A stretch of 64,000 bases of DNA from Siphonodentalium dalli (taxonomy: Eukaryota; Mollusca; Scaphopoda; Gadilida; Siphonodentaliidae): NCBI GenBank assembly GCA_032622095.1, contig CP136066.1, positions 102,135,319-102,199,318 on the forward strand, read 5' to 3'. The first letter of the stretch is position 1. Each line of letters begins with the position of its first letter. Positions 7,018-39,300 of the stretch are shown in pieces. The position numbers and the translations under genes are program-made. Below the pieces are notes generated by a model that saw only the letters and a program-made list of their open reading frames with translations, was not told the origin of the DNA and searched no databases.

Positions 7018-7018
<1 letters not shown>

Positions 7019-7054
<36 letters not shown>
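7019..7054. repeat. Poly-C run of 36
   Basis: Uninterrupted C at the right end of the foldback element. The mirror position at 1939-1949 has only 11 G, so the homopolymer has expanded on one side or is an assembly artefact. Confidence 0.95.
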
Positions 7055-7367
7055 ACTAATCTCCCTTTGAAATTCAACAGTACATATAGTTCAGAAAAAA
7101 AATGTCCAGTTTACAATGAATGCAAATCAGTGGTTTGAAATGTTTTGAATTCCTATCTGAGAGGAACTGTGCTTTATATACAAAGATGATAAAATGGTCA
7201 CATATCAGCGCCAACTTAAAATAAATCAATTATGATGATGACAGATTCTTCTTGTTGGTGTCTACGCTCCCATGCCATCATGTTATACCTTAAATGTATA
7301 TACATGTACATTTATTCATCTTATATTTAGCATCGAGACTCAACTCCCACGTTCGATAATGGCCTCA

Positions 7368-8483: not shown

Positions 8484-8775
8484 TTAAATGTACATAATCC
8501 GAATTGACGTTCCTAAATTGCTATTTCTTAGGCATCGAGGGTAAAAATATTCGATTCGAGTCGAGAAACCCATCCATCAAATCTCAGAGTTATCAGATAT
8601 CGATTTTTGAAATCTGTTATTTTTCACCACCTTCAATATTTGGCGGCCTAGCAGATATTCGACGAGCCGACCGACATACCCTCGATACTAAATTTCGTTG
8701 AAAAAAGATGTTGATATATAACACGTTTTGGAAAATTTTATACTAGAGTTGACAGTGGTTAGCATTAGTTTTTGT
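8484..8775 (+). repeat. Dispersed repeat family F, copy 1
   Basis: Shares the blocks gtaaaaatattcgattcgag, gatttttgaaatctgttatt and cacgttttggaaaatttta with copies at 24570-24705, 51923-52245 and 53267-53605. Other copies open with ttaaagatgcataatccg. No tRNA-like boxes and no clear inverted ends, so the class is unknown. Confidence 0.7.
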
Positions 8776-8787
8776 TAATTGATTTGT

Positions 8788-8828
8788 GTTGTTGTTGTTG
8801 CTGCTGTTGTTGTTGCTGTTGTTGCTGG
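8788..8828. repeat. (TTG/CTG)n microsatellite
   Basis: About fourteen imperfect trinucleotide units, mostly ttg with three ctg. Confidence 0.9.
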
Positions 8829-9248
8829 AATCTGATGATACGGGGACCATCGAATCTGACTGGGTACCTTTAAATGTTTCAATCTAAACCTGTCTACATG
8901 CTTTCGAATTTTAGGCCACGCAATGTCAGTCCACAATTTATGCAAAGGCACCAGTCTTTGGTTATTCTTGCTAACCATACCAAATAATCTACAATACTAT
9001 CTTTGTGTCACCCCATTGAGGTGAGTTCGAATTGATAACTATAAGATGGTCTCGGATAAGCGTTGTACAGACCAGACCAGGTATACCGATATGGGTGGGC
9101 ATGATGGTTGGCTTAAAATTGTGAAAAAAGGGTTACTACTCGACCTTTGTGATAGAATGATGGTTAGTTTTAGGTCACGGGTGTCGATCAGTATGGACAT
9201 TTCCATTGAACTATCTATAGTATATAACGATTTCCTCTTATTCCACAG

Positions 9249-9279
9249 GTGGAGACACTGACGAAAGAAAAGATGAGAG
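9249..9279 (+). CDS. Gene A exon 2 (31 bp), N-terminal residues
   Basis: A pyrimidine-rich acceptor ending ttattccacag precedes GTGGAGACACTG and the exon ends at donor gtgagt. It encodes VETLTKEKMR plus the first base of a split Glu codon. This aligns without gaps to the LTEEQIAEF region of calmodulin, and 31 bp is the length of the equivalent exon in many animal calmodulin genes. It is too short to be found as an open frame. Exon 1, expected to contribute only ATG, lies upstream and was not identified. Confidence 0.75.
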
Positions 9280-12200
9280 GTGAGTCCTTACATTAGATGA
9301 TGTTGTGCTCTTAGTAAAAGTTACACCTAATTCCACGACATAGTTTATTCGCATGCCAAAATTAGATGTCACTGAAAGTTCATAAAACTGAACAGATTTG
9401 AACGGATATGCCTCATTTGAGTCTCCAAAGCACATGTTTGCTGTGAATATTATAGTTTGTATATTACAGTTTGTATATTATAGTTTGTATATTATAGTTT
9501 GTATATTATAGTTTGTATATTACAGTTTGTATATTATAGTTTGTATATTACAGTTTGTATATTATAGTTTGTATATTATAGTTTGTATATTATAGTTTGT
9601 ATATTATAGCAATGCGGAGTGATTTGGTATCGTTCACTATGGGAGGCTAAATTAACTTTTAATAATTATTTGCGGTTAAGCGAAATTATTTGTGCTTAAG
9701 CACAATTATATTCGCTTAAGAACAAATATTTTCGCTTAAGCACAAATATTTGATCTTCAGCTCAATTATTTGAACTTAAGCTCAAATTGTTGTTCTTAAG
9801 CGTAAATATTTGTGCTTAAACTCAAATATGTACATTTCATTCCCCATCAATATAGATCTTCCCTCAAAAAATAAAATAGGCTTCCGCATGTTTGAACTTT
9901 TAATGTGTGGTGGACTCTGTCAATATCAACAGGGTGTGTTATGTAATTGTTTTTAATTTCCTTATAAGTGCTTAAGCACAAATAATTTTGCTTAAGCGAA
10001 AATAATTGTGCTTAAGCATAATTTTTGTATTTGTGCTTAAGCGTAATTATATTATTTGCAATTAAGTGCAAATAATTGAGATTAAGCACAAATAATTGCA
10101 CTTAAGCGTAAATAATTATTGAAAGTGAACTTGGCCTCCCATATATAGTTCACACAACGCACGCTGTCCTGCCACTCCAAATATCTAAACATCTTGAACG
10201 CTATATCTACTGGAAAGAAAAAATCTCGTTCTTGTATTATAATAGGTAGGTTTCGAACGTGACATGTTCCCGTTCAAACTGTTAACAATAAGCTGTAAAT
10301 TTGGGAAAAACGTCATCAATTTCGTGGTTAGATATTAATATGAGTAACTGAGCTACATGCAACTTGTTGTGTATGGCAAGACATGCGTATAAATGCATTC
10401 GGTCAGCATGTCACATTCGGTCGAAATTCGAATGGTCTTCGTAATTGGAACAATTAGTTTGACGAAGTAGTCCTGGGCCCTGTTTCATGAAGGCAACTTA
10501 TGACATAGTTGGGACTTAAGATGGTCATAAGTTCAAACTTCAGTCATAAGTGCGTTTCACGAACAAAGTCTTAACCTAAGATGGTCTTAACTTTGGTCTT
10601 AACTTTAAGACTGGTGTGAGGTGTCATAAGATAATCTTAAAGTTAAGACCTACGTTGTAATCCGCAGTTGGTCCGAAATGTGGATGGGATCTAGTTCATG
10701 TATATATTATTATAAACACATTTAACTGAATAACACCTTGCTAGCACGGAGGGGTGTTTCGGAAATGGTAGTAATTAATAACCAATTGGTAAGCTATAGC
10801 AGTGACGTGGCTAGTGGTTGCAAGATTGGCGGGGTGTCCGCTACTAACTGTAAACCGCCAAGACCGGACTATATATACATTTCTAATTGCTGTTACAAAA
10901 AGAATATATTTACATAGAGTTGAACATCATTTGCGATTCAAATCACCCAATCGCACTGTAGACAATAATCATGTTGAGACAATTAGTCCGAACATTTTCA
11001 CATCGAGGATAATAGTGAATGATTGATACTCATTTTTTTTTTATAAATGCTTATGTCAGATATTATTATTATTATTATTTACTTGCCTTTCTATATTATT
11101 ATGTTATAATTTGATTGTAAAAATGTATTGTATATGTACCCCGTATATATATCAACAAGATAATAATACATATTATGTGTTATTTTATTATTATTATTAT
11201 TATTATGTATATTATCATAATCTATTAACTATGAAAAAAAGAAAGATATATAGCATGTATATAGTATACGGACCGCGCGGGCACACTGGGATCCGCGAAA
11301 GAACATATAATATAACTGTGAACTGGCCCACAGACCCCTGTGGGAATTACTAAAATACCAATATACCAGTGGTATAGTCTATATTGGTATTTAGTAATTT
11401 TCCCCAGGGGCCTGTGCACCGGCCGTCTGTTCACGTGTTGGTTAAACGCTCTTTATTAGAAGTCGTTGATTTGGTTTTTATTAAAACATATATGCAGATT
11501 GTCGTTCAACGTAACGTACTTTCGAAGTTCATACGCAGTTTGTTAATTATAACAGGCGTTTAGCACATTTGTCAACAGAACGAGAGCAAATGTCACTAAC
11601 ATCATTTATATATGGCTTCTACAAGTATGTCTCAGATTGGAAATAAGTCTATTTGGAGCACGATATGAAGTCCTATTCACATTATAGCAATATAAATAAA
11701 GAGCGTTTTGTGTTAGTATTCCATGAATGTTGGCAATCAATAAAGAGCGTTTAGCTCAGTGCTTCCATTGTGGTGCATTGTATGTGTATGCCGTGTTGGC
11801 GACATATTCGGTTTCCTTGTATTATAGATGCTTCAAAGACGTATAATGTATTAGAACCTAATATCAGCATTGAAAGGAGCGAACATATGTCTCGCGTCGC
11901 TTTAATGGCATGTTATATGGGTGACGGTTCACATTCTGAGTTAGGATGTATAAGTCCCTTTAATAACTGAAATAATATATTTGAGCTCGATACGTTTGTA
12001 TAAAATAGGTATTGGAAGCATGCAGCTATGTGTGGATGGGGTCTGACACGAAAAACACAGTTAAAAAGCGCGCTCGTGCAGTTAAGTATGCACCAGTCAT
12101 TATACTGATTATCGCCCTTGCATTAAAATATCATAATTATTCTTAGACACGCCCTAGTGTCTGTTACCAGACACTGTACCTAGGCATATAACACACACAG

Positions 12201-15200
12201 AACCAACATTGTCTGTGCATAGCTGTAATAAATTGTCGAGAGCCAGTCTAAAAGCGCGCGAACTTAAATTACTACTTAAGTAGGACTTAATCTTGTTTTG
12301 TGAAACGCGTTCTTGAAACGGAAAAGTTACATCATAAGATCCACCTTAGATCTTAGATTAAGTCCATCTTAAGATAATCTTATGACATTGCTTCATGAAA
12401 CAGGCCCCTGTTTTATATGTTTGAAGACGAACATCTGCTATGTCGTTCTGTGCATATAGAGAACCTGTTATAATATGTTCGGGATACAAGAAAATATCAA
12501 AACAATTTTGATTGTCCATACATTTTCATTTAAAAAAAACAATATTATGGCAGGTTAAATGCTACAGCTTGGATGTGTCCAATTAATACAATATTTTAAG
12601 ACCTATAGCAGTTCCAAACTTCCCCATCTGCTCATATTATAAATTGACAATCGGGGCACAGGTGGTACATGTTTCAAACATGTCGTAAAATCAATACGGA
12701 TGGCGAGATAAATTCTTCCCGTTATCAAAACAAACACAACAGCGTGACGTTCATCACGAGGAATGTATGTTTCCCGTGCTGTATAGTGCTTGGCGTTAGT
12801 CGTTTGAACTGTAACTTGTAGTTCGCAACCTACATATTAGCCAGTTTTAGCCAAATGTACGTGTAATTAACTCGCAATTATCGTGTGTTACCATTGCCAA
12901 CGGACGTCATCTGACTCATGCACCGCCACACTATAATTAAATGGGACGAATGTGATCCCACAGAATGTTTGGATATGTCTCCATGATTCACCATACATGA
13001 TGTCGAATGTGGTTAACCCTCACTATACTAAGTGGTTTCTCCCATTTAGTTATATAAAGGTATATATTGGAATGGTCTATTATCCATTTCGATCGGTGTT
13101 CAGGGTAAATTAGCATACGACAGTCAGGCCAAAAGAATGCTGAATGATTCTTATTTGTTGGAGGGGATTGTTCAGATAATATAAGTTAATCAAAACGACA
13201 TATTTAAAGGCACGAGTGACCTTTGTGGTGGGTTAACTGATATATGCTGTTAATATATTCACTTCCGTTAAACACTCCATAAACGGAAAGAATATTAAAC
13301 AGAACCTGGCTTTTGTTTACATAACAAAGCGTACAAACTTGACAATAACATACTATTTACACGATATGTATGATTGGTATCAGAATAAAATATGTCTATA
13401 TTTTAATATTCTTTAAGTTTATGGTAGTCTTAAAGGGTGTGACTATTTTAACAGCATATCCACTGCGAATGCCATCCGTGCCTTTAATGAGGGGACTACT
13501 CACCAATGAGTATTTAGTATAGCCAGGGTTAATCCAACAACCCGCGTGTCAATATTCGCATATATATTGCGTATTGTTGTGGCACAAAACCACTTAGTCT
13601 GATCAAATGCGCTTTACACTATGGGAGAGAGATCAAGGGAACGTCAAATATGAAAGCACGGTGTTATCCGACTTATCGAAAAACTATTATACGAGAGTAC
13701 ATGTTCATTGCCCACTGGGGCCCAGACATATTTTTGTGCTGCATACTATTTACATAGCCCGTCTGTGTGACACTAAATCATGTTCTGTGATTGGTCAATT
13801 GCCAATTGGGTCACCTGTTTCATACCCCAATAATACAGACCGTAACACAAACACGACGTCACAAATTGTTAACCTAATCTGACCTAATACAATAAACGTG
13901 TTCAGCAGAATATTTGGGTGTGCTTTTCAAAGTTCAGCGAATTGCTTCTGAAGCCAGTTAATTATATCGATCACGTTATCGTCGCCAAGTTTTTGGAAAT
14001 CTTATATTTGGCTGACTTAATGTGCTGCGTGAGCCATTCTGAATTTCTCGTCAGATTTTGTGAAAATAAATAAGAATACACTCAGCTTTTTACGGGAATC
14101 AGTTATCAACTAACTATATTCGCGGTTCACACAATTATAATGTGTCACAATTACAACCACAGCACCGTATCCCCCAATAACACACACCCACTACATTAAT
14201 TTCTTAAATATATGATCCGACCCTTATTCCATTCATTAACCCCATTATATTATAATTATATACAACGATAATTGTATGACAGGAAATAGTGTCAAGTGTA
14301 CCCAAAATTTTAGTATATGGTTGTTCCGCAAACGTGACCTTTGATTTCCGGCTTGTCGTACGCTAAATCTATGTTTGTGACTATTGTTTATTTAGTTTAA
14401 ACAAATATTACATTACATTTACGCCATTAAATATGTCAAATAGTCTTATTTATCTGGGACAATTTCTTTACGCGGGCAAACAACGCACATGCCTTATAGA
14501 AGCCGCTGTTAGATGCACGTCCATTTATTGATAAATTTATGTATGTTTTATTGAGATTTTGGATCAAATAATAAATATCGTCCCCAGTTTATAGCGAAAT
14601 TTACAAAACTTGTCCAGTAAATAGGACTGGACCTCGCAAAAGACCTAATTTGCTGGGCTCGTTTTGTAAATTTCGCTATAAACTTGGGACGACTGGTAAA
14701 TCCTCTATATAATTATATCACAAAAGAGTCCCATGCTGGTTCTCTGTACAAATAACACATCTTATGGATAAATGGCTCCCACAACACCTGAATTTTAAAA
14801 TATGAATCCAATTGACAGCATTGTCCTTCCCGCAGACATTATTCGACACTATTATCCTTAAAATAAAGTTCAGTTGATTCGACTAGGGTGTGAAGCAACC
14901 AAAGCGTAATAATTCTGGTACCTAACACAACTGGGTCGAATTCGTCAGCTCCAGTTTAAACCGGGTCATTGACGGTTCAACTAAATTGTGGTCTAAGGGG
15001 GCTCTTGTGACAATGGGCATGTGGTCAAACTACCCTGCTATCATGCAGACCAAAATGAGATTTATATGCTTCAAGCCGTCAAATGGCAGTTTAAATCGAA
15101 AGTTTCCATAAACTGGGTTTAAACTGGAGATGACGAATCTGGCCCAAGGTTCAAATCGACGAATGGTTGAATGTATGTACGCTGTACATGTATCACACAT

Positions 15201-18200
15201 TTTCTTTGGCAATCAGTCCAGTCTTCACATACGTGTACGATTATACATATAATGTGGCAAAATCAGATCCATTGAATCCATTGTACGGGTACTGTGAGTT
15301 TCTTTCGGACGGTCCTCGACATTTTGAGCTGGGTGCTGAGGCTGAACAGACGATCGGTGAAATATTTGAAGAGTGCATAATTCTTTCTCATAGAAGATTT
15401 AGTAGCGGATAAACCATGTCGTTACTCAAGGTTTGGGGTGTAATTGGGGACAACGAGCAACATTAACCCTTTACCCAACAGAACGGCCCTGTGCCAATGC
15501 ATTCTCTTATATATGCGAGTCGACCATAGGTCGCCTCGCATATATAAGAGAATGCATTGGCTTAACACATTAAAAATTATAAAATTGTTAAAGAATGTAA
15601 GAAAAAATGGTAAAAAGTGTTAGGCCAATGCATTCTCTTATATATGCGAGGCGACCTATGGTCGACTCGCATATATAAGAGAATGCATTGGCACAGGGCA
15701 TAACTGTAACCATCACAACGTGGTCAATGAGCCGGTTCCAATGATATCCATATTTGTATGGTTCTATTGAGACAGACCGAAGATATTTTAGGCTGTTGAA
15801 GCTTTATTTGGCCGGTTTTGGCCGGTTTGTTGGGTAAAGGGTTAAACATTTATTACTTGTTTTCTGATATATAGAGCGAATATTCGAATATTCGCACCAA
15901 ACATACATTTATATATACCCTAAACCGCGAATAACAAACAAAGTTGACTTTCCGCTTTTCGGTAATTAAAGGGGTACTGTACACTAAATCCAGCCATTTA
16001 TGGGACCATATCCTTTCATACTCAACATAATCTATGCAACACATGAATGAATTTGAGCTATTGATTAGTGCAAAATACACTCAAGTGCTCTAAGAACGAT
16101 ACAAACAACATGAAAATGAATGTATGACTCGACTCATAAATTAATTTTCATTATAATTACCCTGTTATTTGCATCGTTCATAGAGCAAATGAGTGTATTT
16201 TGCACTAATCCATAGCTCAAATTCATTCATTTGTTACATATATTCTGTTGAGTATAAAAGGAGATGGTCCCATGGCCGGATGTAGTGTACAGTCCACATT
16301 TAAGTCCAGTCGTCTCTTCGTTAAAGATATATTCAAGGTTCCAGACGTCCAGTTACAACAACAACATACAAAATTCAATTTAATACAGTTTCTTTTTTGC
16401 TATCCCCATTACAATTTTTAGAAAACCAGAAAACCAATCCCTCTAAAACATCAAAACTATATGAAATATTTAGAAAATTCTATATCAAACAATGTATTGT
16501 TTTATCCGATCGAACGTATATCATTTTAAACGTGTTGTTTTATACACCTTTAACAAGCCTGGGTCCTATCTTTCTTTTGTTCATATTTCGCCCCATCTGT
16601 GATACATGTTGGGGGAAATCGTGATAAAGCTACTGTGGTTACCAAATTTAGTGTATTCATTACGTGTTTGTTTAACATGTATGGCCATGTCTATCCATAT
16701 CCGGTATTAATAGTTAAACATTGACGATCAATGAGGATGAGCTCTCAGCAAACTGGACAGTATAGATTTATACGGACGTATATATGTCATTAAAATTAAA
16801 GGAGACTAAATCTGTTCATAAAATGTTCTCACTGTGGGTAACTTTATCACGTTTTTTTGGAATATCTTTTTAACCTTTTCACTAAAACAACTTTACCGAC
16901 GAATATGACCAATTCAACGTAATACGTTGGTCATTTTATCCCGAAGAGGTGTTCTGTAAGCTGTGTATATACATGTTCGATTGTCCCAACATCAGGTTTG
17001 ACCAATCGTGACGTTGCTCTATACGAACACACCTTGGTTGATGTCAGCTGACGCCCGATCAATATAGATCGGCTCCTGGTATATTGTCATTTTATGTGAG
17101 GATCAATGGAAACCACGCGGACCTTGAAGTTGCATATTTCCATTGTAGTGGGGACAAAATCGTTATCTCTGACAACATCGGGTTGGATTCAAAATTGACA
17201 TCCTGATATCAAATCCCCATGCACCCCCGATATTGCCGTAGTAAACTTGTAAAGGAACATTTTTAAAGTAGCCACCAGACTGTGTTATCCTACGTGTTGC
17301 TACTACTGTTTTTTCAGAATACAAAGATGCATTTTGTTTCTACGACAAAAATGGCGATGGACAAATATCATCACGAGAGATAACCAGTGTTATGCGCTCT
17401 CTCGGCCTTGATCCTTCTGCTGACGAAATAAAGGATATGGTTGATGAAGCCGATCAAGATGGTATATATATATTAAATATAGCAAACATTGATGACGACT
17501 AATCCGATATACAGAAAGAAAACCGTACACGGAATTTTGTACTCCCGAATCTATATATATACCTTAACAGCACATTTTTTCGTTGTGTTCGTGGTTGTGT
17601 GGTTGTGAACAACCACGAATTTAAGATCCCTTCTATGCACAATTATTTTTACTTTTATTACATGATCCGACCCTTATTCCATTCATTAAACATTTTCTAA
17701 TATAATGATATGCAACGGTTGTTGCATAACAGGAAATAGTGCCAGGTGTACCCAAATGTAGTATTGTTGCGCAAACGTGATTCTGAAGCGGGGACGAGGA
17801 GTGAACAAGAATCGGTGTCTTTGGCTGATATTGATATAGTTTGAAATTTGTTTTAATTAAATTTACGCCATTAAATACGTTAACGAGTCTTATTTATCCA
17901 GGGACTATTTCTTTACGCGGGCAAACAACGCGTTTTTGCGTGAAATGTTATTGCATGCCATTTATATAGAAGCCGATGTTATTTTCACGTCACATTTATT
18001 GATATTAATGGAGGTTTTGGATCAAGTAATAAATAGAATCCACAATTGGTCCCCAGTTTATAGCGAAATTTACAAATCTTGTCCAGTAAGTTAGGTTTAA
18101 TTTACTTAACTTGTTTATTATTTGAATTGATGTTATCAACTTACATGTATGCTATCGGGATAGGAAAAATAAGTATGTTTACATCACATCACATTTAAGA

Positions 18201-21200
18201 TCCCCTCAACCAGAAATTTATAGCTGACTGAATTTTCGACAATATCATGGGAGTTGTATAAATATATTTGGGCGGTAACTATCGATATGGGAGAATACCA
18301 ACGAACACATTGCAGTCAAATTCTAAGCAAAACCTTCATTAAGCCAAAATATGGCCAATATAATACGTTAATTCAAATTAAAACATACCAATAACACTAA
18401 AATCGTGCATAGACGCTGTAAATATGTCCAATACCCATTGCGTGTTTTCGGGAATGAGTATATGTATTTTCATCCAGCTTATGGTGGCTTACGTAATATC
18501 ATGGTGTTACTATCTCTGTTGAGAACAAAAGCCTAATCCAGTGATAATTAATTATTCCTGCAGCTGTCTGCTCAATTCCCATGCATCAGCCAATAATATG
18601 TATGCACTTATAATATTTGAGCTTGAAGCCCATTATTAAGGGCATGGATGAGACAATTAATAGCGGCAGACCCACGAATTTACGAACCAAACAGGAAGTT
18701 AGCAAATTGCTTAACCAAGAAAAATGATACCATCGAAATTAGAGCCATTTGCAGTAAAAAAAAAACACAGAAAAAAGAACACATATATATAAGTGGAAGC
18801 TCGTGTCGAATTATAATGGCCATCTTGCATTACCATAGTCCATGTTTCATTCGACGTAAGCCAGCAAATGAAATCGGTTGTGATTATGCTGTTTTACGTC
18901 GAAGTCCCGTGCATATATCTTTCTATAGCAGACTTTACGCTCAGATCCAGTGGTGGGATGTTTTTGTCACATTTAATCAATGTTACCTTACAAATCAATA
19001 CATGATGCTATATATGTCGGTCATAATAACTTTCGTATTAAATTTGGATTAGACTATGACCCGTAATTACAAGAAATCTCTGTCACTTCGCGAAACATTG
19101 TGTAAACATTGGGACAAAATAGATTTTTCATATTAAATTACATTACTACTTTCAGTGGCAACTCTCGTGGAGTTCAGAACAAATATAATATTTGCTATGT
19201 AATAAACCTGTTTACGGTCACAATTGAGACATTTTATTAAAAACATTATTATGGATTTTGGGTGAGCGGGTCAACAACTCTAAATCCCGATATGGAAAGA
19301 CTTATACATGAGGCAATAGTTTGTTTATTATATAGAAAATTATTTCCCTACCTCTGCGATTTTAACCAAACTGTCTGGTTCTTCTTTCATCAAAATATAG
19401 GTAGTGGAACTGTTGAGTTTGATGAATTTCTGGAAATGATGGCGAAAAGTCACCGAGAGACAGACGATCCAATGGATGAGGTTATCGCCGCATACCGGGT
19501 GTTCGATAAGGGGAACACCGGGAAAATCCACTGTGATAAACTACGTCATATCATGCAGAACATGGGCGAAACGATGACGACAACGGAAGTGGACGAGATG
19601 TTCCGTGATGCGGGTGTGGACCGCGCAGGAATGGTCGACTACAAACGTGAGTGCTCCTGAAACGAACATTCCTCATTCAGGGCCGGGAAATATTTTTTTG
19701 AATGCCACCTATACACTTTCAAGAAAGAATTACGCTTCGTAATAATCTTCTGCGTTTTAATATACATTAAGTTAAGACATTATTATATGGGGACCAGAAC
19801 TTAAAACTATTTAGAAAATGAAGATATCTTCAAAGCTGTGCAAAATTACTTACGAGATACAACATACGAGAAAAATCTTACAAAGTTCTATTAAGACGCT
19901 CGCATCAAGATACAAATTGTAATATGTTATCAGTGCAAATTTAGGTTCATGTATCACATTTAAAACAGCTACTCGATAATCTTATTGAAATTATGAAGAA
20001 TGGATGGGGTGGTGAGATTACAAATTATACTTCAAATAATATACAATGATATATGTATATACTTGTAAATATGTTATACCTATTGTGTTGACAACCCAAA
20101 TTATCATAAATATATCAGTGTTATAATGGCAAATGGGAGAGGGGGTTATGCATAAGTGGATCTCACAATGCCCTCCAATCCCAATGCCAATTTGTATTGT
20201 AATTATTGCAATGTAATATACTTATTTGTAATAAATATGTTTAAACCACGTGGCTCGAAAATTGTGACAAGATGTCTCACATCGAAGTGATTATTCATTG
20301 TTTTCTTCACCTACATAAATAACTCAACCAAAAGTATAGCGAATTATCTTTGTATAATGTTTTTGCTAGCTCGTTTTCTAGAAAATTACGGCGTATGTTC
20401 CCAGCCCTGTCATTTTAACCTCAAAGGGGATACTTTACACTAAATCCGGCCATTTATGGGACCATCTCCTTTTATACTCAACATAATATATGCAATAAAT
20501 GAATGAATTTGAGTCATGGATTAGCTCTATGAACGATATACAAACAACATGGTAATTATAATGAAAATGTGTTTGTGGCTAGAGTCATAAACTCATTTTC
20601 ATAATAATGACCATGTTGTTTTCTTCGTTCATAGATAACATGAGTGTATTTTGCACTAATCCATGACTCAAATTCATTCATTTGTTGCATATATTCTTTT
20701 GACTATAAAAGGAGATGTTCCCATGAATGGCCGGATTTAGTGTACAGTACCCCTTTAAATAGTATGTACCCGTAATGTGGTAGGAGGGACAATATAGGTT
20801 TAGGTCGATAAATACAAGAAATATCGATATCATTGTTTATATTTACATACTAAGTGTTATTATCACTAAATCCAGCATTCTGATTGGTCGGCACCCAAGT
20901 GGCTAGTTGCAGTTATTTCTCGGTGAATGCGCAACGGCGTATAACTGCAAGGTCATAACAACATCGATACGTCATTTGGGTTTGGAAAGACGAACGCGTA
21001 ATGTTTTGGGCGCATTTGGATTCGCGCAGGATTAACTTAATAAATCATCGGGTTTCAATTGTTCCTGTTAACCTTTGCCAAGGGTGCTATGGGATATTTT
21101 TGGGCTGGTTTTGTCACGATACACTTTTCGATTTAAATACATTTACAAAAGTGGCTTTTTCGCTAAATGTATATAAATATAAGGATTAACTGTCATGTGG

Positions 21201-24200
21201 ACTGTTTTTGTAACCGTGAGGTAAGTGGTCATAACTTGTATGTAAAACCATTCGGGTTTTACATACAAGTTATGACCACTTACTTCACGGTTACATCTCC
21301 ATAAAAACAGTCCACATGACAGTTAATCCTTATTTATTTTCCACACAAGCTCTCTTTATTTTCACCATAGCAGGTGTATACATAATGATCGCAATTGCTT
21401 TTTATTTTTTCACGCCATGACCTGAATAAAAGTCTTTCCATGTCATATTAAGTCCGTATACAAATATGTCACATATCTATCGGCCTAATTTCAATCCCGA
21501 ACCCGGACCTTGATTGTGTGCAATCATGTTGGGGAAAATCGTGATAAAGCTACTCTGGTTCACCAAATTTAGGGTATTAATCACGTGTTTGTTTTACATG
21601 TATGGCCATTTGCACTCATATCCGGTAATGATATTTAAACATTCACGAACAATGAGGATGAGCTCTCAGCAAACCGGACAGTGTAGATTTGTATCACAAG
21701 TGCTTTTTATTTTTTGACGCCATGACTTGAATAAGTCTGTCCATGTCACATTAAGTCCGTATACAAATATTTCACATACCTATCGACCTATATTAATCCC
21801 GAACCCGGACCTTGATTGTGTGTTTTCGCATTGCATGCTTGTAACGAATTGCCTCGCTTGCAATTACCCCTTTCTATGCTAAATACTCATTGACGAGTAG
21901 TTTCCTTAGAAACTATTCAGACAATAACTTAAAGGTACGGTTGGCCTTGGCGGTGGGTATCCTGTGAAAATATTTCCACCCGTCAAAAACCACCACAAAC
22001 AGAAAGAACATCAAAATGTAGACAGACTTTGTCCGTATACAAATAAGAAATATCGCATAAACAGTATGTTATTGTCATATATTTGACCATTTTTATGTAA
22101 ACAAAAGCATAAAAAGTAACTTTTCTGGTGTTTGTTTATATTATGATGGTAAACATAAAGAGCGTTACTTGTTGGCGAATTCCTGATATGGAACTAATAA
22201 AGAGCGTTTATGCAATTTGTGTGTGATTAGCCAGTAGCATTGTGCTGTCTTCTGTAACACAACCAGGCTCTTGCTTAGGTAAAATATAGTAGGTCTTTAT
22301 GATAACATGCTGTTTACGCGATGGTCATGGTATATATGAACGAATCTGTATGCGTTTTAATGTTTTTCTGTTTACGGTGATTGGAACAGATATGAATATT
22401 TTCGACAACTAAGGCCTCACGTGCCTTTAAACAAAATTATTCTCTGAACATTTCCCATCCCAAAGAATATGAATCCTTCAGCACTTGTATAATTTTTTTT
22501 CTTTTCGTCATACTGTCGCCTGCATATTTTTTCCTAAACATCCCTCCAAATGAATAATAGACCAATACAAAGTATAGTTTTTATAACTGAGTGGGAGAAT
22601 TCATTTAGTATAGAACGGGCTATTTTTTCTATTCGCTCCTTAAATGGAATTTTTGTCAAATCATATGAGCATTTGATGACAAAATCTTTAGGTCTGGGTG
22701 GATGAATTGATGCGCGGTTTTTTTAATTTTGTGTGAGTGTGGCGATGATGCCATCATACCCATCGGAACAGGGTATTTATCTCATATTACAACGCACATA
22801 TGTCTGGTAATAATCTTGATGTTCTGATGGAATTAGTGAGCTCGGATTCCAACCGAGCTCGCTCTATAACTCGGATATGCGAATGGTAATGCTAGGCGGC
22901 TAGGGACCAGTTCTCTGTCCTCTGGGTTTTCGATACATTGGGTTGTGACTCATAAAGATAATTAGAGAATGGAAGCTGTCTGTTATCGCCTATTAATAAT
23001 TAGTAAGCCTGGATACGGATAGAAAAGCATTTTGTTATGACGTCCTGTTGCTAACCAGTATAGAAAGGATCAAAAGGCTGTTTACAACTCTTGTTTTCAT
23101 TTGTATCCAGCCTCCCTGATGTGGAACATACGACGTGGCATTTTCGCCGCAATAGACCGTATAGCGAGAATGATGCGTTATATGGACTAGATATTCTCCG
23201 AACACAATAACTTGTACTGGGAGCCGCATGCATTTACTATATATGGGATATTTAGAGTGGATCTATAAAACGTACTATATCTTATGTATTTTTCACCGAT
23301 TTTGCTTAAATCTCAAACATATATCAGGGACAACCATATACTCCTCCCAGAATGTTAAAACAAATTGAAGGACTCATCGTAATTTTATTGCTTTTATGCG
23401 ACAAAATAGTCGAAAGTCGGAACTCCAGAGCTTCGATGATAGACAAAGGCCGTTCTATTTGGAACTTTCAGAGAATATAGGACAAACATAGTCCTATCGG
23501 GATATCTTAAAAGATTGTCGATTATTGGGATTTGTTCACCCCCAAGACAACCGACATGCAAATATCATTTAACCCTTTCTATACTAAAGCATCGTTGGTG
23601 AGTAGTTATCCAATAGGAATGTAAACATTTCCCTTAATCAATATGACATCTTCTGCACTTTTATTTATCTGTCGTCATCTTTTATCACCTTAACATCCCT
23701 CAAAATCAATACTAGACCATTCCAATATACACTTTTTAACTGAAACCCAACGAACGAAATATCAGGGCCTCACAGACTGTGAGTCACAGTTTGAAATTGA
23801 AATACTTGATGCCACTCATTTGAATGTATAGTATATATTCTGAACATCCTATTTTAATTATACCGACTATCGGATTTTAAAAGGATATAATGCTTGTAGG
23901 TTCATACATAGGACCTAAATATTCACATAGGTTCACATTGAACATATTTGATTATGAAATAATCCCAATATAGGGCTTATACCGTTATTCCGTTGAATGG
24001 CGCGGGCCGCAATGCAAACACATTATAAAGAGCGCCCACCTGGTAAGTCGTGTCGATGAAAAAGTAGATTAAATCCACGTGGCGGTTTGCGCTCCAAAAT
24101 ACAAATAATATTATAAGCTTTTGAATTTTTCGCTGTATCGAAATAGGTCGATAAATATCTTAACTACCTATCTACGAGTATTCTGTTGGAAAATGCAGGG

Positions 24201-26612
24201 GGTAGCAGGAAGACAGCCCGATAGGGCTATGCTACCCACGACAATACACTGCTTTACTTTATTATGTATTAATGCCACTGTATCATTCGTGTGTATTGTA
24301 AATAAACTATCCTATCCTATCCTATCCTATCTGTAACCCAAAAAAGACGCATTGAAGTAATGAAAAATACAACTATGAACAAGGTGTTTGGGTCCCAAAC
24401 AAAAAACAGCCATATGCACGACATGGAACAGAAAAGAGCGTTCCGTGCTATTATATTCCTGATATGGTAGCAATAAAGAGCGTTTGTCTGACTTCGGGCG
24501 AAAAATTTAAAACGGCTGGATAATACAAACAACATCTTTTCCTAGAAAATAAACAAGTGTTTGCACTAATTAAAGATGCATTATCCGCATTAACACTCCC
24601 AAAATAACTATTTCTTTGGCTTCGGGGGTAAAAATATTTGATTCGAGTCGAGGAACCCACCCATCAAAGCTAAGAGTGATCAAATACCGATTTTTGAAAT
24701 TTGTTAATTAAATATATCTCTTCATTGTTTTTTCACACAGCCACTGTTTTTCCCCTCAAATTGCTCGGATTAGACAAACACCGTGAACTTGGACAATTTT
24801 AGAAAACATGATCATACTAAACATAATGGCACTAAACATAATGGCACTAAACATAATGGTACTTTTTCTCAACGCCATCATTTTGCAGTAATTCCAGCTT
24901 GTGTGATATGGAAGATAACTCTACTCGGAGTAAGGTCGTTGTCAGGGAATCTATGGAATAAAATGCTGTAGTGTTATTATATCGGATTGTTTGATTTATA
25001 CTTTAATTGAGATACATAGTTTACTTCATACAACAATAATTAAGATGAAAAAGGCAGGCGCCAAGTGTGGGTTTTTATATATTCGATCCCAAGTGCTTGT
25101 ATCACATGTGTTTGTACATCATGTCATGAATCTCCACTCAGCTAACCCCGTAGATATCATATATTCCACGAGTACAAAACCTGGGAACTTTTTGATGTTC
25201 TGACCCATTCTGACCGGGAACTTTATTATATTGAGCAAACAAGGAATATATTTCTGTTTTAATACGTGTTCCTCAATAATCTGCTTCACATTAGGCGGTG
25301 AGCCCAGCTCGAGATTGCATGCTTTTTTGTGAGCCGATATCGCAATAACGTTGAACTAGTTACCCAGGAGACATTCCATAATTGTAAGTGAAGTGAAGTA
25401 CATTATTAAGGAACAGGCAATAATTCAGAAATATATTCCCCGCGTTATTTTTCAACTTTATAAGGTTCAAAACTTCAAAAAGATCCCAGGTTTTGTACTG
25501 GTGGAATATGTCTCTATGGCCGTTATTCAGAGTAGAGATTCGTGGCATGATATAATGGGTTTGTACCAATATCAATATTAACAACAAATGTTAGACAAGG
25601 GGATAACTTAGCTGGGACCAACATGGTCTGGTCTGGCGTGTTAAGGGGGAGGTCAAGTGATCAATTTTGAATGGGGGTTTGCATGCAAATCTGCGGAGCA
25701 AAAGTTACAGAGTTGCACATACTTCTGAGTGTGGCTTGATGTGGTATTGGAAACAACTGGTATTTATCTAGCGGTATAGTTTTATATTTATATATAAATT
25801 GTTCAACGAAGACCATTCAAATATCGATCGACATGCCGGCCAAGTTCCATGTACATGTATAACTCAGTTACCCATAACCACGTTCCAATACAAGAATCTA
25901 CCGAACGCGAACTGCAAGTCACTATTGTGAAATCGAGCCACGAAATTAGTGACGTTGGCAGCTTGACGTTAACCGTTTTAACATGAACGTGTAGTTCGAA
26001 ACTTATACCTAATCACGGTGAGGCATCCCGTTGTTTCGAGTTGTTGGGTATCATTCAGAATGGCTGAGGCTATCGAAAGCGCGACCAGAAACGAGGAAAA
26101 CGGTACTAAACTATGATATGACATATTACATAGTATGTTGACAGCTACGAGCAGATGCTATACTATTTTTCAAACAAGCTGATACCTCATTTGTTTCCAA
26201 ACTCACAGTTGTTTGCTCTAATATTCTGACCAAAGTTGTCAGTCGAAGACTTCTCCTAGATGCAGGGAGTGGAGTGTTCCACGAACCTCCGATTGGCAAC
26301 TTAACAACTTTGGTCAGAATGTTATAGAGAACTACTGAGTATTTCGGAACAAATAAGATATCAACTTGTTTTTTAAATATACTAGCATATGCTTGTAACA
26401 GTCCAAATGCTGCGTTTTGTGTCAGTTCGTCATATATTATGTTTTTCTACGTTTGCGCTCGCCTCTTGAATGCGTGGTCCTCACCAACCTCGAAACCACG
26501 TGATTCCCCACCAATGGATTTGAAAATGTTGTTGCCATGGTTACTCATGCTATATCTCTTTTCAGAATTTGTCAGATTGCTGTTTGGTCGCCCACCATCT
26601 CCGAAGAAATAG
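9249..26612 (+). CDS. Gene A: divergent calmodulin-like EF-hand protein (4 coding exons found)
   Basis: Joined exons 9249-9279, 17318-17461, 19401-19646 and 26566-26609 (stop TAG 26610-26612) give 155 codons, so 156 residues with an initiator Met from an unlocated ATG-only exon. Intron 1 would be phase 0 and all later introns are phase 1, as in calmodulin genes. Introns are about 8.0, 1.9 and 6.9 kb. EF-hand loops fall at residues 21-32 (DKNGDGQISSRE, canonical), 57-68 (DQDGSGTVEFDE, canonical), 95-106 (DKGNTGKIHCDK, no acid at position 12) and 131-142 (D1 to G, D5 to A, E12 to Q). The N-lobe should therefore bind calcium and the C-lobe probably binds weakly or not at all. The linker has one extra codon, and the tail ends in a short basic Pro-rich stretch. 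Family membership is firm; the role is unknown, with a calcium sensor or a light-chain-like subunit possible. Confidence 0.85.
9452..9609. repeat. 14-bp tandem array, about 11 units
   Basis: The unit is atagtttgtatatt with a frequent acagtttgtatatt variant; the repeats are head to tail with no spacers. It lies in intron 2 of gene A, about 170 bp after exon 2. Confidence 0.95.
9632..10153. mobile_element. CTTAAG foldback element, about 520 bp
   Basis: The ends gttcactatgggaggc and ggcctcccatatatagttcac are mirror images, followed inwards by ttaataattattt and its complement. Each arm is a tandem series of roughly 20-bp units of the type attatttgtgcttaagcaca, each unit itself a small palindrome around cttaag. 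The arms (9660-9830 and 9967-10110) surround a ~135-bp unique centre. No protein frame. Confidence 0.85.
10225..10460 (+). repeat. Dispersed repeat, inverted partner at 25795-26025
   Basis: The reverse complement of gaatggtcttcgtaattggaacaatt and of gaacgtgacatgttcc near the start matches 25795-26025 (gaagaccattc, actcagttac, catgaacgtgtagttcgaaa), with moderate divergence. Confidence 0.6.
11059..11211. repeat. (ATT)n microsatellites
   Basis: Two short runs, at 11060-11080 and 11186-11206, inside the 1.9-kb element. Confidence 0.85.
11322..11428. repeat. Hairpin around a short loop
   Basis: Left arm actggcccacagacccctgt followed by gggaattactaaaataccaatata pairs with tatattggtatttagtaattttcccc and aggggcctgtgcacc. 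Arms are about 45 bp, with a ~15-bp loop. Confidence 0.8.
12411..13012. other. No recognisable feature
   Basis: Intron 2 of gene A. AT-rich, with no long frame, no splice-bounded EF-hand exon and no shared repeat seen. Confidence 0.6.
13013..13532. mobile_element. TTAA-bounded MITE family B, copy 1
   Basis: The ends ttaaccctcactatactaa (13013-13031) and ttagtatagccagggttaa (13514-13532) are near-perfect inverted repeats with TTAA at both extremes. It is interrupted by a family A element at 13204-13487. Related pieces lie at 21864-22622, 23569-23765, 32507-33010, about 41200-41369 and 51690-51915. Confidence 0.8.
13204..13487. mobile_element. TTAA-bounded MITE family A, short copy (284 bp)
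   Basis: Begins ttaaaggcacgagtgacc and ends catccgtgcctttaa. Blocks gacaataacatactatttac and cgtaaac-type motifs match the 502-bp copies at 21929-22430 and 37214-37715, of which this is an internally shorter relative. It is nested in family B copy 1. Confidence 0.75.
13533..14212. other. No recognisable feature
   Basis: A 91-codon frame at 13607-13882 has no recognisable domain and no splice support. Otherwise AT-rich intron. Confidence 0.55.
14213..14630 (+). repeat. Dispersed repeat, direct copy at 17661-18095
   Basis: Both copies open with atgatccgacccttattcc and run through gacaggaaatagtgtcaa, cgcaaacgtga and cgggcaaacaacgc to ccccagtttatagcgaaatt, with small indels. Both lie in gene A introns. 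Confidence 0.8.
14580..14690. repeat. Hairpin at the end of the above repeat
   Basis: gtccccagtttatagcgaaa followed by tttacaaaac pairs with gttttgtaaatttcgctata followed by aacttgggac. The second arm is absent in the copy at 18050-18095. Confidence 0.85.
14945..15140. repeat. Imperfect inverted repeat
   Basis: tcagctccagtttaaaccggg near 14946 faces ctgggtttaaactggagatgac near 15112. Similar words (ctccagttttgacc, taaactaccagtttt) recur near 58619-58660. Confidence 0.5.
15463..15845. mobile_element. TTAA-bounded MITE family C, copy 1 (383 bp) with double palindrome
   Basis: The ends ttaaccctttacccaacag and tgttgggtaaagggttaa are inverted repeats with TTAA at both extremes. Inside are two 74-bp palindromes (15487-15560 and 15622-15694). 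Each has 27-bp arms beginning gccaatgcattctcttat around a tcgaccataggtcgc centre, and the two are themselves inverted. A second full copy is at 38041-38443. Confidence 0.9.
15966..16303. mobile_element. TTAA-bounded palindromic MITE family D, copy 1 (338 bp)
   Basis: Left end ttaaaggggtactgtacact, right end agtgtacagtccacatttaa. The two halves are reverse complements over most of their length, for example gtgcaaaatacactcaagtg against atgagtgtattttgcac. A second copy is at 20421-20758. Confidence 0.9.
16605..16775 (+). repeat. Dispersed repeat, direct copy at 21527-21693
   Basis: Blocks aatcgtgataaagctact, acatgtatggccat and aatgaggatgagctctcagc are shared in the same order with point differences. 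Confidence 0.85.
16776..17317. other. No recognisable feature before gene A exon 3
   Basis: Intron sequence. The last 20 bases form a good pyrimidine tract and acceptor for the exon at 17318. Confidence 0.6.
17318..17461 (+). CDS. Gene A exon 3 (144 bp), EF-hand 1 and start of EF-hand 2
   Basis: The acceptor tttttcag at 17310-17317 and the GT donor at 17462 bound a 144-bp phase 1 to phase 1 exon. It begins EYKDAFCFYDKNGDG and ends in the D-Q-D-G start of EF-hand 2. Loop 1 has Asp, Asn, Asp, Gln, Ser and Glu at ligand positions 1, 3, 5, 7, 9 and 12. The exon length and phase are those of the classical calmodulin exon. Confidence 0.92.
17661..18095 (+). repeat. Dispersed repeat, direct copy of 14213-14630
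   Basis: Starts catgatccgacccttattc and ends atttacaaatcttgtccag, with an extra block near 17770-17800. It lies within gene A intron 3. Confidence 0.8.
18096..19261. other. Intron sequence; unassigned 134-codon frame at 18648-19052
   Basis: The frame starts MRQLIAADPR and has no domain I recognise, no conserved splice context and a biased Lys run (KKKTQKK). It sits inside a gene A intron, so I do not call it a gene. The rest is AT-rich without shared repeats. Confidence 0.5.
19401..19646 (+). CDS. Gene A exon 4 (246 bp), rest of EF-hand 2, EF-hand 3 and most of EF-hand 4
   Basis: The acceptor is caaaatatag and the donor gtgagt at 19647. The frame opens G-S-G-T-V-E-F-D-E-F and continues through the central helix, a degenerate EF-hand 3 and a degenerate EF-hand 4. 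The open frame runs upstream to 19262, but that part has no EF-hand similarity and is intron. In vertebrate calmodulins this region is split into 107- and 136-bp exons (243 bp together). Here it is one exon with a single extra codon. Confidence 0.92.
19660..20420. other. No recognisable feature
   Basis: AT-rich gene A intron 4 sequence without long frames. Confidence 0.6.
20421..20758. mobile_element. TTAA-bounded palindromic MITE family D, copy 2
   Basis: Left end tcaaaggggatactttacac (degraded), right end agtgtacagtacccctttaa. The interior matches 15966-16303 in the same orientation, with a ~30-bp deletion in the left half. Confidence 0.9.
21181..21331. repeat. Long hairpin, about 65-bp arms
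   Basis: aaggattaactgtcatgtgg through gtggtcataacttgtatgta pairs almost perfectly with tacatacaagttatgaccac through ccacatgacagttaatcctt around aaaccattcgggttt. One arm has a small insertion (atctcc). Confidence 0.9.
21395..21822 (+). repeat. Direct repeat pair flanking the 21527-21693 repeat
   Basis: About 120 bp (tgctttttattttttcacgc through cggaccttgattgtgtg) at 21395-21520 recurs at 21702-21822. A copy of the 16605-16775 repeat lies between them, suggesting a composite or tandem unit of about 305 bp. Confidence 0.75.
21864..22622. mobile_element. TTAA-type MITE family B, copy 2, split by family A
   Basis: Left end ttacccctttctatgctaaa, right end ttagtatagaacgggcta. The inner words cattgacgagtagt and ctgaacatttccc match other family B pieces. 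A 502-bp family A element sits at 21929-22430. Confidence 0.7.
21929..22430 (+). mobile_element. TTAA-bounded MITE family A, 502-bp copy
   Basis: Begins ttaaaggtacggttggcctt and ends aaggcctcacgtgcctttaa. It is the reverse complement of 37214-37715 along its whole length with equal total size. It contains a pair of AAAGAGCGTT motifs at about 22158 and 22196. Confidence 0.92.
22623..23568. other. No recognisable feature apart from a small hairpin
   Basis: A short stem gagctcggattccaaccgagctc lies at 22839-22861. Frames of up to 64 codons on the minus strand near 23040-23230 show no domain. Confidence 0.55.
23569..23765. mobile_element. MITE family B fragment, copy 3
   Basis: Starts ttaaccctttctatactaaa and continues through gtaaacatttccc, catccctcaaaatcaata and cattccaatatacac, matching 22450-22610 and, in reverse, 13045-13170. 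The right end is missing. Confidence 0.65.
23895..24075 (+). repeat. Dispersed repeat, direct copy at 37735-37960
   Basis: Shared blocks: ataggacctaaatattcac, tatgaaataatccca, ccgttgaatggc and cctggtaagtc / tctggtaagtc followed by gtcgatgaaaaagtag. Confidence 0.75.
24190..24332 (+). repeat. Retroposon 3' tail with (CTATC)n
   Basis: tgtattgtaaataaa is followed by ctatcctatcctatcctatc. A pentanucleotide tail after an AATAAA-like word is typical of the 3' end of non-LTR retroposons. The same arrangement (gcaataaatattctattctattcta) ends the LINE remnant at 28078. Confidence 0.45.
24570..24705 (+). repeat. Dispersed repeat family F, truncated copy 2
   Basis: attaaagatgcattatccgc, cttcgggggtaaaaatattt and gatttttgaaatttgtta match the other family F copies; the 3' half is absent. 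Confidence 0.75.
24809..24862. repeat. 16-bp tandem, about 3 units
   Basis: The unit ctaaacataatggcac is repeated head to tail. Confidence 0.85.
25075..25585. mobile_element. Diverged palindromic element
   Basis: gagtacaaaacctgggaactt near 25168 faces gatcccaggttttgtactgg near 25482. Likewise caaggaatatatttctgttt faces cagaaatatattccccgcg, and ttcctcaataatctgcttcac faces gaagtacattattaaggaac. Arms are about 140 bp or more around a ~90-bp centre. Confidence 0.75.
25648..25720 (+). repeat. Short repeat shared with 55311-55380
   Basis: ggaggtcaagtgatcaattttgaatgggg followed by catgcaaa matches gggagatcgagtgacaaattctgaatgagg followed by catgcaaa. Confidence 0.5.
25795..26025 (-). repeat. Dispersed repeat, inverted partner of 10225-10460
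   Basis: caacgaagaccattcaaat, actcagttacccata and acgaaattagtgacgtt match the complement of the 10.2-10.5 kb copy in order. Confidence 0.6.
26140..26405. mobile_element. Palindromic element in gene A intron 4
   Basis: gatgctatactatttttcaa, attctgaccaaagttgtcag and intervening words are complemented by aacaactttggtcagaatgt through atatactagcatatgctt. Arms are about 105 bp with a ~60-bp centre. It ends 160 bp before the terminal exon. Confidence 0.8.
26566..26612 (+). CDS. Gene A terminal exon with stop
   Basis: A good acceptor, tatctcttttcag, is followed by AA TTT GTC AGA. Joined in phase 1 to the preceding C it reads Q-F-V-R-L-L-F-G-R-P-P-S-P-K-K-stop. This corresponds to E-F-V-Q-M-M-T at the end of calmodulin, with an extended basic Pro-rich tail. 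It was chosen because phase, acceptor and the F-V start of the last helix all agree. A possible AATAAA lies at 27394-27399. The 6.9-kb intron leaves some doubt that this is the used exon. Confidence 0.7.
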
Positions 26613-27580
26613 CATTATGCCGTATTGGGCTACACGGAATATGTTCCGTTGCTGAAACCGACGGCGTGACTTGTGCACAGTTCGACAATCCGATGTCTTC
26701 GCTGTATTCAATCGGACGTGTGGAACTAAGTCATTCTCTGCGGAGATCACAATGCATGTCACACTTTACTTTGAGACAACTACGACCATTCAAATGTCAA
26801 GAGGCATCCACTTCGAATCGGCAATATCGCACACCTGGTTAAGTTGTCTTGTTTATTTTATATTATGCTGGTTGGTCCTGCTGAATTACCATGATGCTGG
26901 TGGGACAAAGTGACGCTGTTGAAAATGTGTACTGTTATTTCTTTCTTAAGTTGACATTTTCGTGGCCTTAGGCTATAATATGAACAAATGGATAAAACCC
27001 CATGATATGTATAAAACATTTAAAAAAAAAGCACCCATGATTATAATATTTTTTTAAGTATTATGTCCATAAACGTTTTGTGTAAACAGTAGTTATTCCA
27101 TATTAGTAATTATTTGCATATTACAAAACAAGTATTAACACTGATTAAATGAAAGGGATTCGACAAAAAGTTTTAAGTGTATGGCTCAAATTAGCATGAC
27201 CAATCAGCACATAGCAAATTAGCAGGACCACTGAACCAGGGGTGTATATATATGACTTATTACATCTTGCAATGTTCTCTCAATATCAGTGCCTGAAATA
27301 TGTGTTGTAACCTTTGTTTTAGCCAATTGAGTGCGCCAGTACACTTATATTCAATGAAAATATCATTCATATTCGTACTCCTGTTTAGTACACAATAAAA
27401 GGGTAAATCCACTATATATACATAAATTTTCTGATCCATTGTGCATGATTACTAAATATCGAGGAGCAAACTGTAAAGTAAATGTAGTTCGGTCCCATCA
27501 GAAGACTGCCGCCACGTGCAAATGTCTATTTTTGAAATAAGGAAATGCATAACATAACATGTTTACAAGACTTCGTATTA
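26613..27580. other. Downstream of gene A; no further gene seen
   Basis: Frames of 101 and 80 codons overlap the terminal exon in other frames and are shadows. There is a possible polyadenylation word at 27394-27399. Otherwise AT-rich. Confidence 0.5.
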
Positions 27581-36321: not shown

Positions 36322-39300
36322 CTACTAATGACATCCGGATATTGACAACATGGCACGTGTTGTAGTACAGTTACTGCCAGTGAAAATCAAAGAATCAAAA
36401 CAAAAATTCTTTACAATCTTTATAAATTGTTTCAGTATAAATAAACTAGAGAATATCAAATACATGCACACACGAAGAACTCTATAAAATCAGTCCGATA
36501 AGTCTGTTCGGAGTCATTATCGTCGGTATAAATGTCAACAGGCCAATTGTCTGTTTCCCACACACAATAATTTCGCTGGAAGAGCGTGTTGAACTTCCAT
36601 AGACGTGCTTAGTACTGCTTACTCTATGGCTGCCAGACAAGTTCGAGCTAAATGCCCATACGTGTACAGCGGTAACCGCCGGTATTTCATCCCTTGTGGT
36701 ACGGTGATGTTTAAGTTGGACCTATTCACTAGTCAGTCGTAGACAGATCAAAGGGAGAGAAAGTAATTCATTCTCGTCCGCAATTGCAGATTCGTCACAC
36801 AGTCGTTGCCTGGTTACACACTCCCACGCAGCTGTCACCTCGTCACCGCCAACTTAAATTCTAAAAGAGAAAATTACTCAATTATAAACTTTTTTCTCTC
36901 GAAATGATTGGCTGAGTGAATAGTTTCATTAGAAGACATTAGTTACATTACCTCCCAATTAAAATGCAATCACATTCAGCTTAAGTATCTGTGGTTTGGG
37001 GTTTCCTGCATGATAAGGTACTGTTTGGTGTTGTTTGTGCTTGCAAATTATAGGTAGTTTCCAGAAAGGGGAAAAAGAACCTGTAATACAAAGCCAGCTC
37101 ATTAGCTGCTCTTTTCTTTCAATTCCCAAAAGTGTGACATAGACTTGAGTTCTTCGTTAGGCAACATATCCTCGTGCAAATCGGTTCATATAGGACTTAA
37201 ATGTTCACATTGGTTAAAGGCACGTGAGGCCTTAGTTGTCGAAAATATTCATATTTGTTCCAATCACCGTAAACAGAAAAATATTAAAACGCATACAGTT
37301 TCGTTCATATATACAATGACCATCGCGTAAACAGCATGTTATCATAAAGATTTACTATATTTTACCTAAGCAAGAGCCTGATTGTGTTACAGAAGACAAC
37401 ACAATGCTGCTGGCTAATCACACACACATTGCATAAACGCTCTTTATTCGTTCCATATCAGGAATTCACCCACAAAGAACGCTCTTTATGTTTACCATCA
37501 TAATATAAACAAGCACCAGAAAAGTAACTTTTTAGACTTGTGTTTACATAACAATGGTCAAAAATATGACAATAACATACTGTTTATGCGATATTTCTTA
37601 TTTGTGTACGGACAAAGTCTGTCTACATTTTGTTGTTCTTTCTGTTTGTGGCGGTTTTTGACGGGTGGAAATATTTTCACAGGATACCCACCGCCAAGGC
37701 CAACCGTACCTTTAATACTGGACAGCGAATAGTTTCATATAGGACCTAAATATTCATATATGTTCATATAATATTGGACTGAAAATAGGTTCACATTGGA
37801 CTTAAGATTCACATATGTTCATATTGGACTTATGTTATTATGAAATAATCCCATGTGAGCTTATATCCGGTGTGCCGTTGAATGGCACGGACCGTATTGA
37901 TAGAGAGCATGAATCTGGTAAGTCCTGTCGACGATAAAAGTAGTTAAATAATACCAATATGGGCTTATTTCGTATGGTAATTGTCCCATATTGGACTGTT
38001 ATAAAACTGCATTTTAAATTCATATAGAACGTATTTCAGATTAACCCTTTACCCAACAGAACGGCCCTGTGCCAATGCATTATCTTATATATGCGAGTCG
38101 ACCATAGGTCGCCTCGCATATATAAGAGAATGCATTGGCTTAACACATTAAAAATTATATAAAATTGTTAAAGAATGTAAGAAAAAATGGTAAAAAGTGT
38201 TAAAAACAGATTTTTTGTTAGGCCAATGCATTCTCTTATATATGCGAGGCGACCTATGGTCGACTCGCATATATAAGAGAATGCATTGGCACAGGGCATA
38301 ACTGTAACTATCACAATGTGGTCAAGGAGCCGGTTTTCAATGATATCCATATTTGTATGGTTCTATTGAGACAGATCGAAGATATTTTAGGCTGTTGAAG
38401 CTTTATTTGGCCGTTTTGGGCCGGTTTGTTGGGTAAAGGGTTACAATAATACCGATATGGGCTTACAAGCTGCAAAACAGAGTTCAGTCCACTTAGTTAA
38501 AGGCCCACTTAATTTTCGAATGCCCAGATAACATTATACACAACATGATATTCCATATTATATACCACTTGGAAGAGGGTCCAAAAATATATATATTCCA
38601 CCAGAATACGGAACAGCTGTGGCCTATAGGAGTGTCCACCAAGTGATAGAGATTCTCAGATCCATTCCAAGACTTCCCCCTTGTCAACCCAAAATGCATA
38701 TTTATCCCGAGTACAAGTTAACAGAGGGGCATGAATCCCGCGTACCGCCTGAAAATAGAGGCCTGTATCAAGCCTGAGTTTAGTGTGCCGGTCATTTGCA
38801 GAATGAGGTCCCCAGAGGGTGAATTTAGTGACGCAACCCGTATAGCGGGCTAGCATAACTACATTCACCCTCTGCTCATTCTGCTTAGGCCTCGTCTTCT
38901 CTGGAAAGTTTCTTTATTATAAAATTTATATGGAAACTTCTTCACATATAGGTTCTATTTCTTTTCTAGTTTATATCCCCAAATTGGCAGACGACACATT
39001 GCATAATCGAGGTTCCAATGGGTGTACATCACAATATCCACCATTTGGGAACTTCAATATGAGTCTATGTCTCCCCATATCGGATTATGCCATATAGAAT
39101 GAGGTCCCCAGAGGGTGAATTTGGTTATGCTAGCCCACTGCATGTGCGGTATAGCATCACTAAATTCACCCTCTGTGGACCTCATTCTACACATGACAGG
39201 CACGCTATAATCAGGTTTTGTCTGTACCCCGCGTACCAAAAGATGGGGTGACACCACCAGAAATGATTCGCACTTCTTCGCGGGGTATGATTTTCTGTTT

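Follow-up and report, generated by a model that had tools for sequence, protein, structure and literature searches.

Gene A of Siphonodentalium dalli, a diverged calmodulin-like gene with two canonical calcium sites and a C-lobe that keeps its core but not its calcium ligands

The window analyzed here, a 64,000-nucleotide stretch of Siphonodentalium dalli DNA, carries two calmodulin-like genes, gene A on the plus strand and gene B on the minus strand, in convergent orientation. The four gene A exons proposed in a first-pass annotation (31, 144, 246, and 47 bp, with GT-AG introns) are borne out by direct inspection. Numbered according to the calmodulin layout, exon 2 (9249..9279, 31 bp) encodes VETLTKEKMR plus one base, exon 3 (17318..17461, 144 bp) encodes EF-hand 1 and the beginning of EF-hand 2, exon 4 (19401..19646, 246 bp, that is, 243 plus one linker codon) encodes the remainder of a canonical site 2 together with sites 3 and 4, both disabled, and exon 5 (26566..26612, 47 bp, that is, 29 plus six extra codons) encodes QFVRLLFGRPPSPKK followed by TAG. 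An AG precedes all four exons, the upstream sequence being pyrimidine-rich at three and less so before 19401, and the donors after exons 2, 3, and 4 are gtgagt, gtatat, and gtgagt. Exon 2 is entered in phase 0 and left in phase 1. Its reading lines up with the first residues of calmodulin, and none of the other candidates among 31 for a 31-bp exon upstream of 17318 is as good. Exon 5 was sought in the form AG|A[AG]TT[TC] with an in-frame stop within 92 bases; among the 26 such sites (12 plus, 14 minus) it is one of two in which the AG is preceded by a 16-base stretch with at least 12 pyrimidines. The joined exons (468 bp) form one open frame of 155 residues plus TAG, ending in LFGRPPSPKK; the 156 residues given in the first-pass annotation had counted the stop. 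A putative polyadenylation signal, AATAAA, lies at 27394..27399 (plus strand).

Gene A had been regarded as rebuilt from micro-exons. We take the exon lengths of a calmodulin gene to be 3, 31, 144, 243, and 29, which sum to 450 and equal the printed 447-base ORF plus stop; with these lengths the gene A series, 31 / 144 / 243(+3) / 29(+18), agrees in its intron positions. Judged by this correspondence, the exon layout of gene A is inherited from a calmodulin gene, not rebuilt. The series is that of the abalone and sea squirt calmodulin genes, for which the abalone report (PMC6171432) describes five exons and four introns, an exon 1 consisting of the start codon only, an exon 4 without an intron, and an identical layout in the sea squirt, the human genes having one intron more. 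Gene A shares with abalone CaM A-D and the sea squirt genes the count of exons that follow the start exon, the intron positions and phases, the intron-free exon 4, and long introns, and differs from them in its disabled sites 3 and 4, its one additional linker residue, and its six additional C-terminal residues; moreover, the abalone proteins are given as 94-98% similar to the human protein (PMC6171432), whereas gene A is 48% identical to calmodulin.

Because the 31-bp exon matches a layout in which exon 1 holds ATG alone, it is exon 2, and because it follows an acceptor and has its sole in-frame ATG at codon 9, the gene model very probably lacks a start exon. Translation could possibly begin at codon 9 of exon 2, which would clip the first helix. 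The 9,248 bases that precede 9249 yielded no convincing start exon, their single ATG|GTRAG site (3682) lying inside a tandem repeat. Weaker ATG|GT sites, at least 19 of them, are indistinguishable from chance. One further candidate, ATGAG|GTATGA at 1920, was rejected by eye for a phase mismatch with exon 2. A TATA-like sequence near 1858, with CRE-like sequences about 60 bases upstream of it, makes 1858-1925 a plausible promoter and first exon, again by eye. A lone start codon on a distant exon means that gene finders may mis-start such genes, a point on which the abalone paper agrees (PMC6171432).

The match of gene A to EF-hand proteins far exceeds chance. A Pfam scan returns EF-hand_7 at 4.6e-26, in keeping with the EF-hand assignment made earlier, and the description of a full EF-hand protein holds for the EF-hands, all four of which are in register with calmodulin in an alignment that reaches its residue 146 and needs a single inserted residue, though not for completeness at the start. 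A PDB search matches 499 distinct sequences below 0.001, the best 60 of which are calmodulins or calmodulin fusions (E 1.3e-48 to 1.1e-42). Identity to calmodulin is 48% (69/144), spread over the N-lobe (37/75) and the C-lobe (32/70), and calmodulin scores highest among ten sequences compared, CALML3 being a close second. Gene A is nevertheless no true calmodulin, given this identity and the absence of position-12 acids from loops 3 and 4. An 11-protein tree, built from the two genes, a calmodulin taken from the PDB search, and eight further sequences, decides nothing, with 0/8 inner branches supported; one fork, itself unsupported (60/78), groups gene A not with calmodulin but with troponin C, centrin, and gene B. 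An Rfam scan of the window gave 0 matches, and a viral-contig search for relatives gave one locus (L001) with a 20-residue match.

The calcium sites divide by lobe. Read residue by residue, site 1 (DKNGDGQISSRE) and site 2 (DQDGSGTVEFDE) are canonical, as the first-pass annotation had it, and the ligand losses that it reported in the other two are likewise present: the site 3 loop, DKGNTGKIHCDK, has Gly at position 3 and Lys at position 12, and the site 4 loop, GVDRAGMVDYKQ, has Gly at position 1, Ala at position 5, and Gln at position 12. The last intron splits the codon for position 12 of site 4, and since exon 4, with this donor, ends in C (19646), Glu is impossible there whatever exon follows. 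When positions 1, 3, 5, 9, and 12 of two sites are counted as ten ligand positions per lobe, the N-lobe differs from calmodulin at four, all occupied by residues still able to coordinate calcium, and the C-lobe at eight, both position-12 acids included. These eight of ten changes are not significantly commoner than the 38 of 70 across the whole C-lobe (P = 0.075).

The C-lobe had accordingly been called dead in the first-pass annotation, a description that is right about the calcium ligands and overstated for the lobe, whose hydrophobic core is kept at every position tested. At core positions that we chose from the calmodulin structure, gene A is still hydrophobic at 17/17 in the C-lobe and 17/17 in the N-lobe. 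We let codons change without constraint in 20,000 simulated runs that began at calmodulin and stopped at the identity of gene A, a procedure that assumes a calmodulin ancestor and is no substitute for orthologue comparison. No stop arose in 589 of the 20,000 runs (10/300, or 0.033, in a smaller first run), while the whole core survived in the C-lobe in 217 runs, in the N-lobe in 270, and in both lobes in 0. Frameshifts and splice sites were left out of the simulation, so the real gene is even less likely under neutral decay. The complete core and the simulation together argue for a C-lobe that is not dead but calcium-blind, and that is probably still folded. A structure model of exon 4 alone (mean pLDDT 60.9, pTM 0.38) is too poor for use.

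The first-pass annotation proposed a changed target or a structural role for the gene A product, which is a fair guess. We put forward, with a confidence evenly poised between acceptance and doubt, that gene A encodes a diverged but working calmodulin paralogue whose N-lobe would act as a calcium switch and whose C-lobe would act as a calcium-independent tether. Such a gene would have originated when a calmodulin gene was duplicated at the DNA level, its exon layout being retained. The N-lobe, with its two canonical EF-hands, is predicted to open upon calcium binding. The C-lobe, having lost its ligands and kept the residues of the EF-hand fold, is predicted to be fixed in a single calcium-free state that would hold its target permanently, our best guess for the target being an IQ-type helix; the N-lobe would then be the sole calcium switch. 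The sequence itself shows the exons, the intact frame, the ligand loss, and the kept core, and we infer expression of the gene, folding of its product, this combined action, and the kind of target. If expressed, the protein would be a natural split of the jobs of calmodulin, one lobe always holding and the other responding to calcium, and proteins of this sort probe the extent to which either lobe works without the other.

A precedent for such a division exists in a model of how SK channels are gated, with constitutive binding by the C-lobe of calmodulin and activation by its N-lobe; the precedent is weakened and contested, since the title of the source gives the calcium dependence of both lobes a part (PMC9803350). 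Among calmodulin relatives, the vertebrate calneurons 1 and 2 (CaBP8 and CaBP7) share with gene A a predicted pattern of active EF1 and EF2 and inactive EF3 and EF4 (PMC2873350). The same paper describes proteins only 20-21% identical to calmodulin and reported from no invertebrate, in which a deletion of three residues inactivates EF3 and the C-terminus is extended by 38 hydrophobic residues (PMC2873350); gene A has neither the deletion nor the hydrophobic tail and was rejected as a calneuron. Diverged paralogues of calmodulin in which one lobe is disabled are of a kind already known, and gene A is a further case; it looks like a largely ordinary gene, a modest variation on a well-known calcium sensor. 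A limited search of the literature, which is weak evidence of absence, found no invertebrate calmodulin-like protein that is calcium-blind in the C-lobe only.

Four other readings of gene A have to be weighed against the tether-plus-switch protein. The product may serve myosin as a dedicated light chain, like CALML4 or Dictyostelium CalB, and its own calcium binding would then matter little. A C-lobe core kept without ligands suits such a role, yet we regard it as unlikely. CALML4 is calmodulin-like with altered EF-hand loops, as is gene A, but its first loop is non-canonical, whereas gene A retains canonical sites 1 and 2. Human CALML4 is 32% identical to gene A (45/139), calmodulin being much closer (69/144). 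CalB, likewise calmodulin-like with altered EF-hand loops and different from gene A in that the latter keeps two canonical sites, serves DdMyo7 as a light chain, a role that the same source gives to CALML4 for human Myo7A and Myo7B (PMC12125552). However, calcium cuts CalB binding by about 75% (PMC12125552); as CalB is still calcium-responsive, altered loops alone need not mean a calcium-insensitive grip.

It is improbable, in our estimation, that sites 3 and 4 still bind metal weakly and that the C-lobe is of low affinity rather than calcium-blind. Site 3 retains Asp1, and site 4 retains Asp3 and Asp9, but both position-12 acids have been replaced, by Lys and Gln, and a Lys in an EF-hand loop should repel the ion. 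CalB again offers a parallel, being calcium-responsive despite unpromising loops, an effect that its authors consider may be indirect through CalA (PMC12125552).

Quite improbable, too, is a mollusc-specific calmodulin-like protein of mantle or shell formation, of the kind of Pinctada CaLP. Among the papers listed, those that name calmodulin-like protein, Pinctada, and CaLP are mostly about mollusc shell or mantle; any secretion signal at the N-terminus of gene A would lie outside the exons found. Finally, that gene A is a pseudogene, or a fragment without its first exon, can be given very little weight, since against the start exon missing from the upstream search stand a frame free of stops and frameshifts, intact splice sites, and two intact cores at 48% identity, and ATG-only start exons as in abalone are easily missed, the exon 1 - intron 1 fragment of CaM D exceeding 13 kb (PMC6171432).

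Gene B, which the first-pass annotation had missed, was found by tblastn with calmodulin and runs on the minus strand from 49255 to about 36835. Its exon 3 (49112..49255, 144 bp; tblastn E 1.1e-10 with calmodulin) encodes EF-hand 1 with a canonical site 1, DKNGDGVITSDE. Exon 4 (39591..39833, 243 bp; E 3.6e-19) encodes the remainder of site 2, which is canonical, a disabled site 3, DQKGKGYIVTND, and site 4 as far as DIDGDGRINYE-, and ends at a weak donor, GTTGGT. A probable exon 5 (36835..36860, 26 bp, EFKLAVTR plus stop) lies 2.7 kb downstream of exon 4 and is the second of the two strong-tract sites among the 26 described above; the chance of such a site on the correct strand within 10 kb is roughly 0.08, as estimated from its rarity in the window. 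Site 4 of gene B is probably intact, its Glu12 being contributed by exon 5 at 36860 to give the loop DIDGDGRINYEE; otherwise, if 36860 is not exon 5, gene B would run into GWLRTEQYIQ (read by eye) and site 4 would lack Glu12. None of the candidates listed for a 31-bp exon (15 of 16) fits, and the 14,745 bases upstream of exon 3 contain no ATG|GTRAG site for a start exon.

Gene B is identical to calmodulin at 56/129 positions, and its core is kept at 17/17 positions in the N-lobe and at 12 of the 13 readable positions in the C-lobe. In 20,000 runs of simulated neutral decay for gene B, 877 acquired no stop, 46 kept a core at least as good, and two did both. A Pfam scan detects EF-hands in gene B and nothing above the curated cut-off in four of 19 ORFs.

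Genes A and B are 33% identical to each other (42/129), less than either is to calmodulin. When gene B is taken with its probable exon 5, both genes differ from calmodulin at 48 positions, and they share a residue at six of these against about 4.0 expected. A blastn comparison of 8501-28000 with 35001-64000 gave 18 matches, none at gene A exons. The low mutual identity, the number of shared residues, and the lack of exon DNA matches lead us to reject a shared recent origin, so that neighborhood is the sole sign of a common local origin. We would entertain only tentatively, as something more doubtful than probable, that the window is part of a local, invertebrate-specific set of paralogues losing C-lobe sites stepwise, independently of the vertebrate calneurons. 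Gene B would then have lost site 3 only and gene A sites 3 and 4, toward single-lobe calcium switches. With a paralogue close by in which probably a single C-lobe site is disabled, the order of loss could be followed.

Several repeats and probable traces of mobile elements accompany the genes. Upstream of gene A, a foldback of about 5 kb (about 1938-7065) looks like a mobile or palindromic element, with a G run near one end, a C run near the other, and inverted arms that include 2469-2687 / 6307-6525 (89%) and 2821-3004 / 6002-6185 (90%). One of several dispersed repeats common to both gene regions, and probably a mobile element, is a 506-bp stretch at 21929-22434 that recurs at 37210-37715 in the opposite orientation with 94.9% identity. 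At about 27644-28060 on the plus strand, a stretch ending in TTCTA repeats reads by eye like the tail of a LINE reverse transcriptase (HFVIECSAYSDLR...). The Pfam scan of this retroelement-like stretch gave no match above the curated cut-off. Between exons 3 and 4 of gene B, a tandem array (47352-48761) comprises 4.2 copies of a 339-bp unit with GCCCGGGC-rich decamers.
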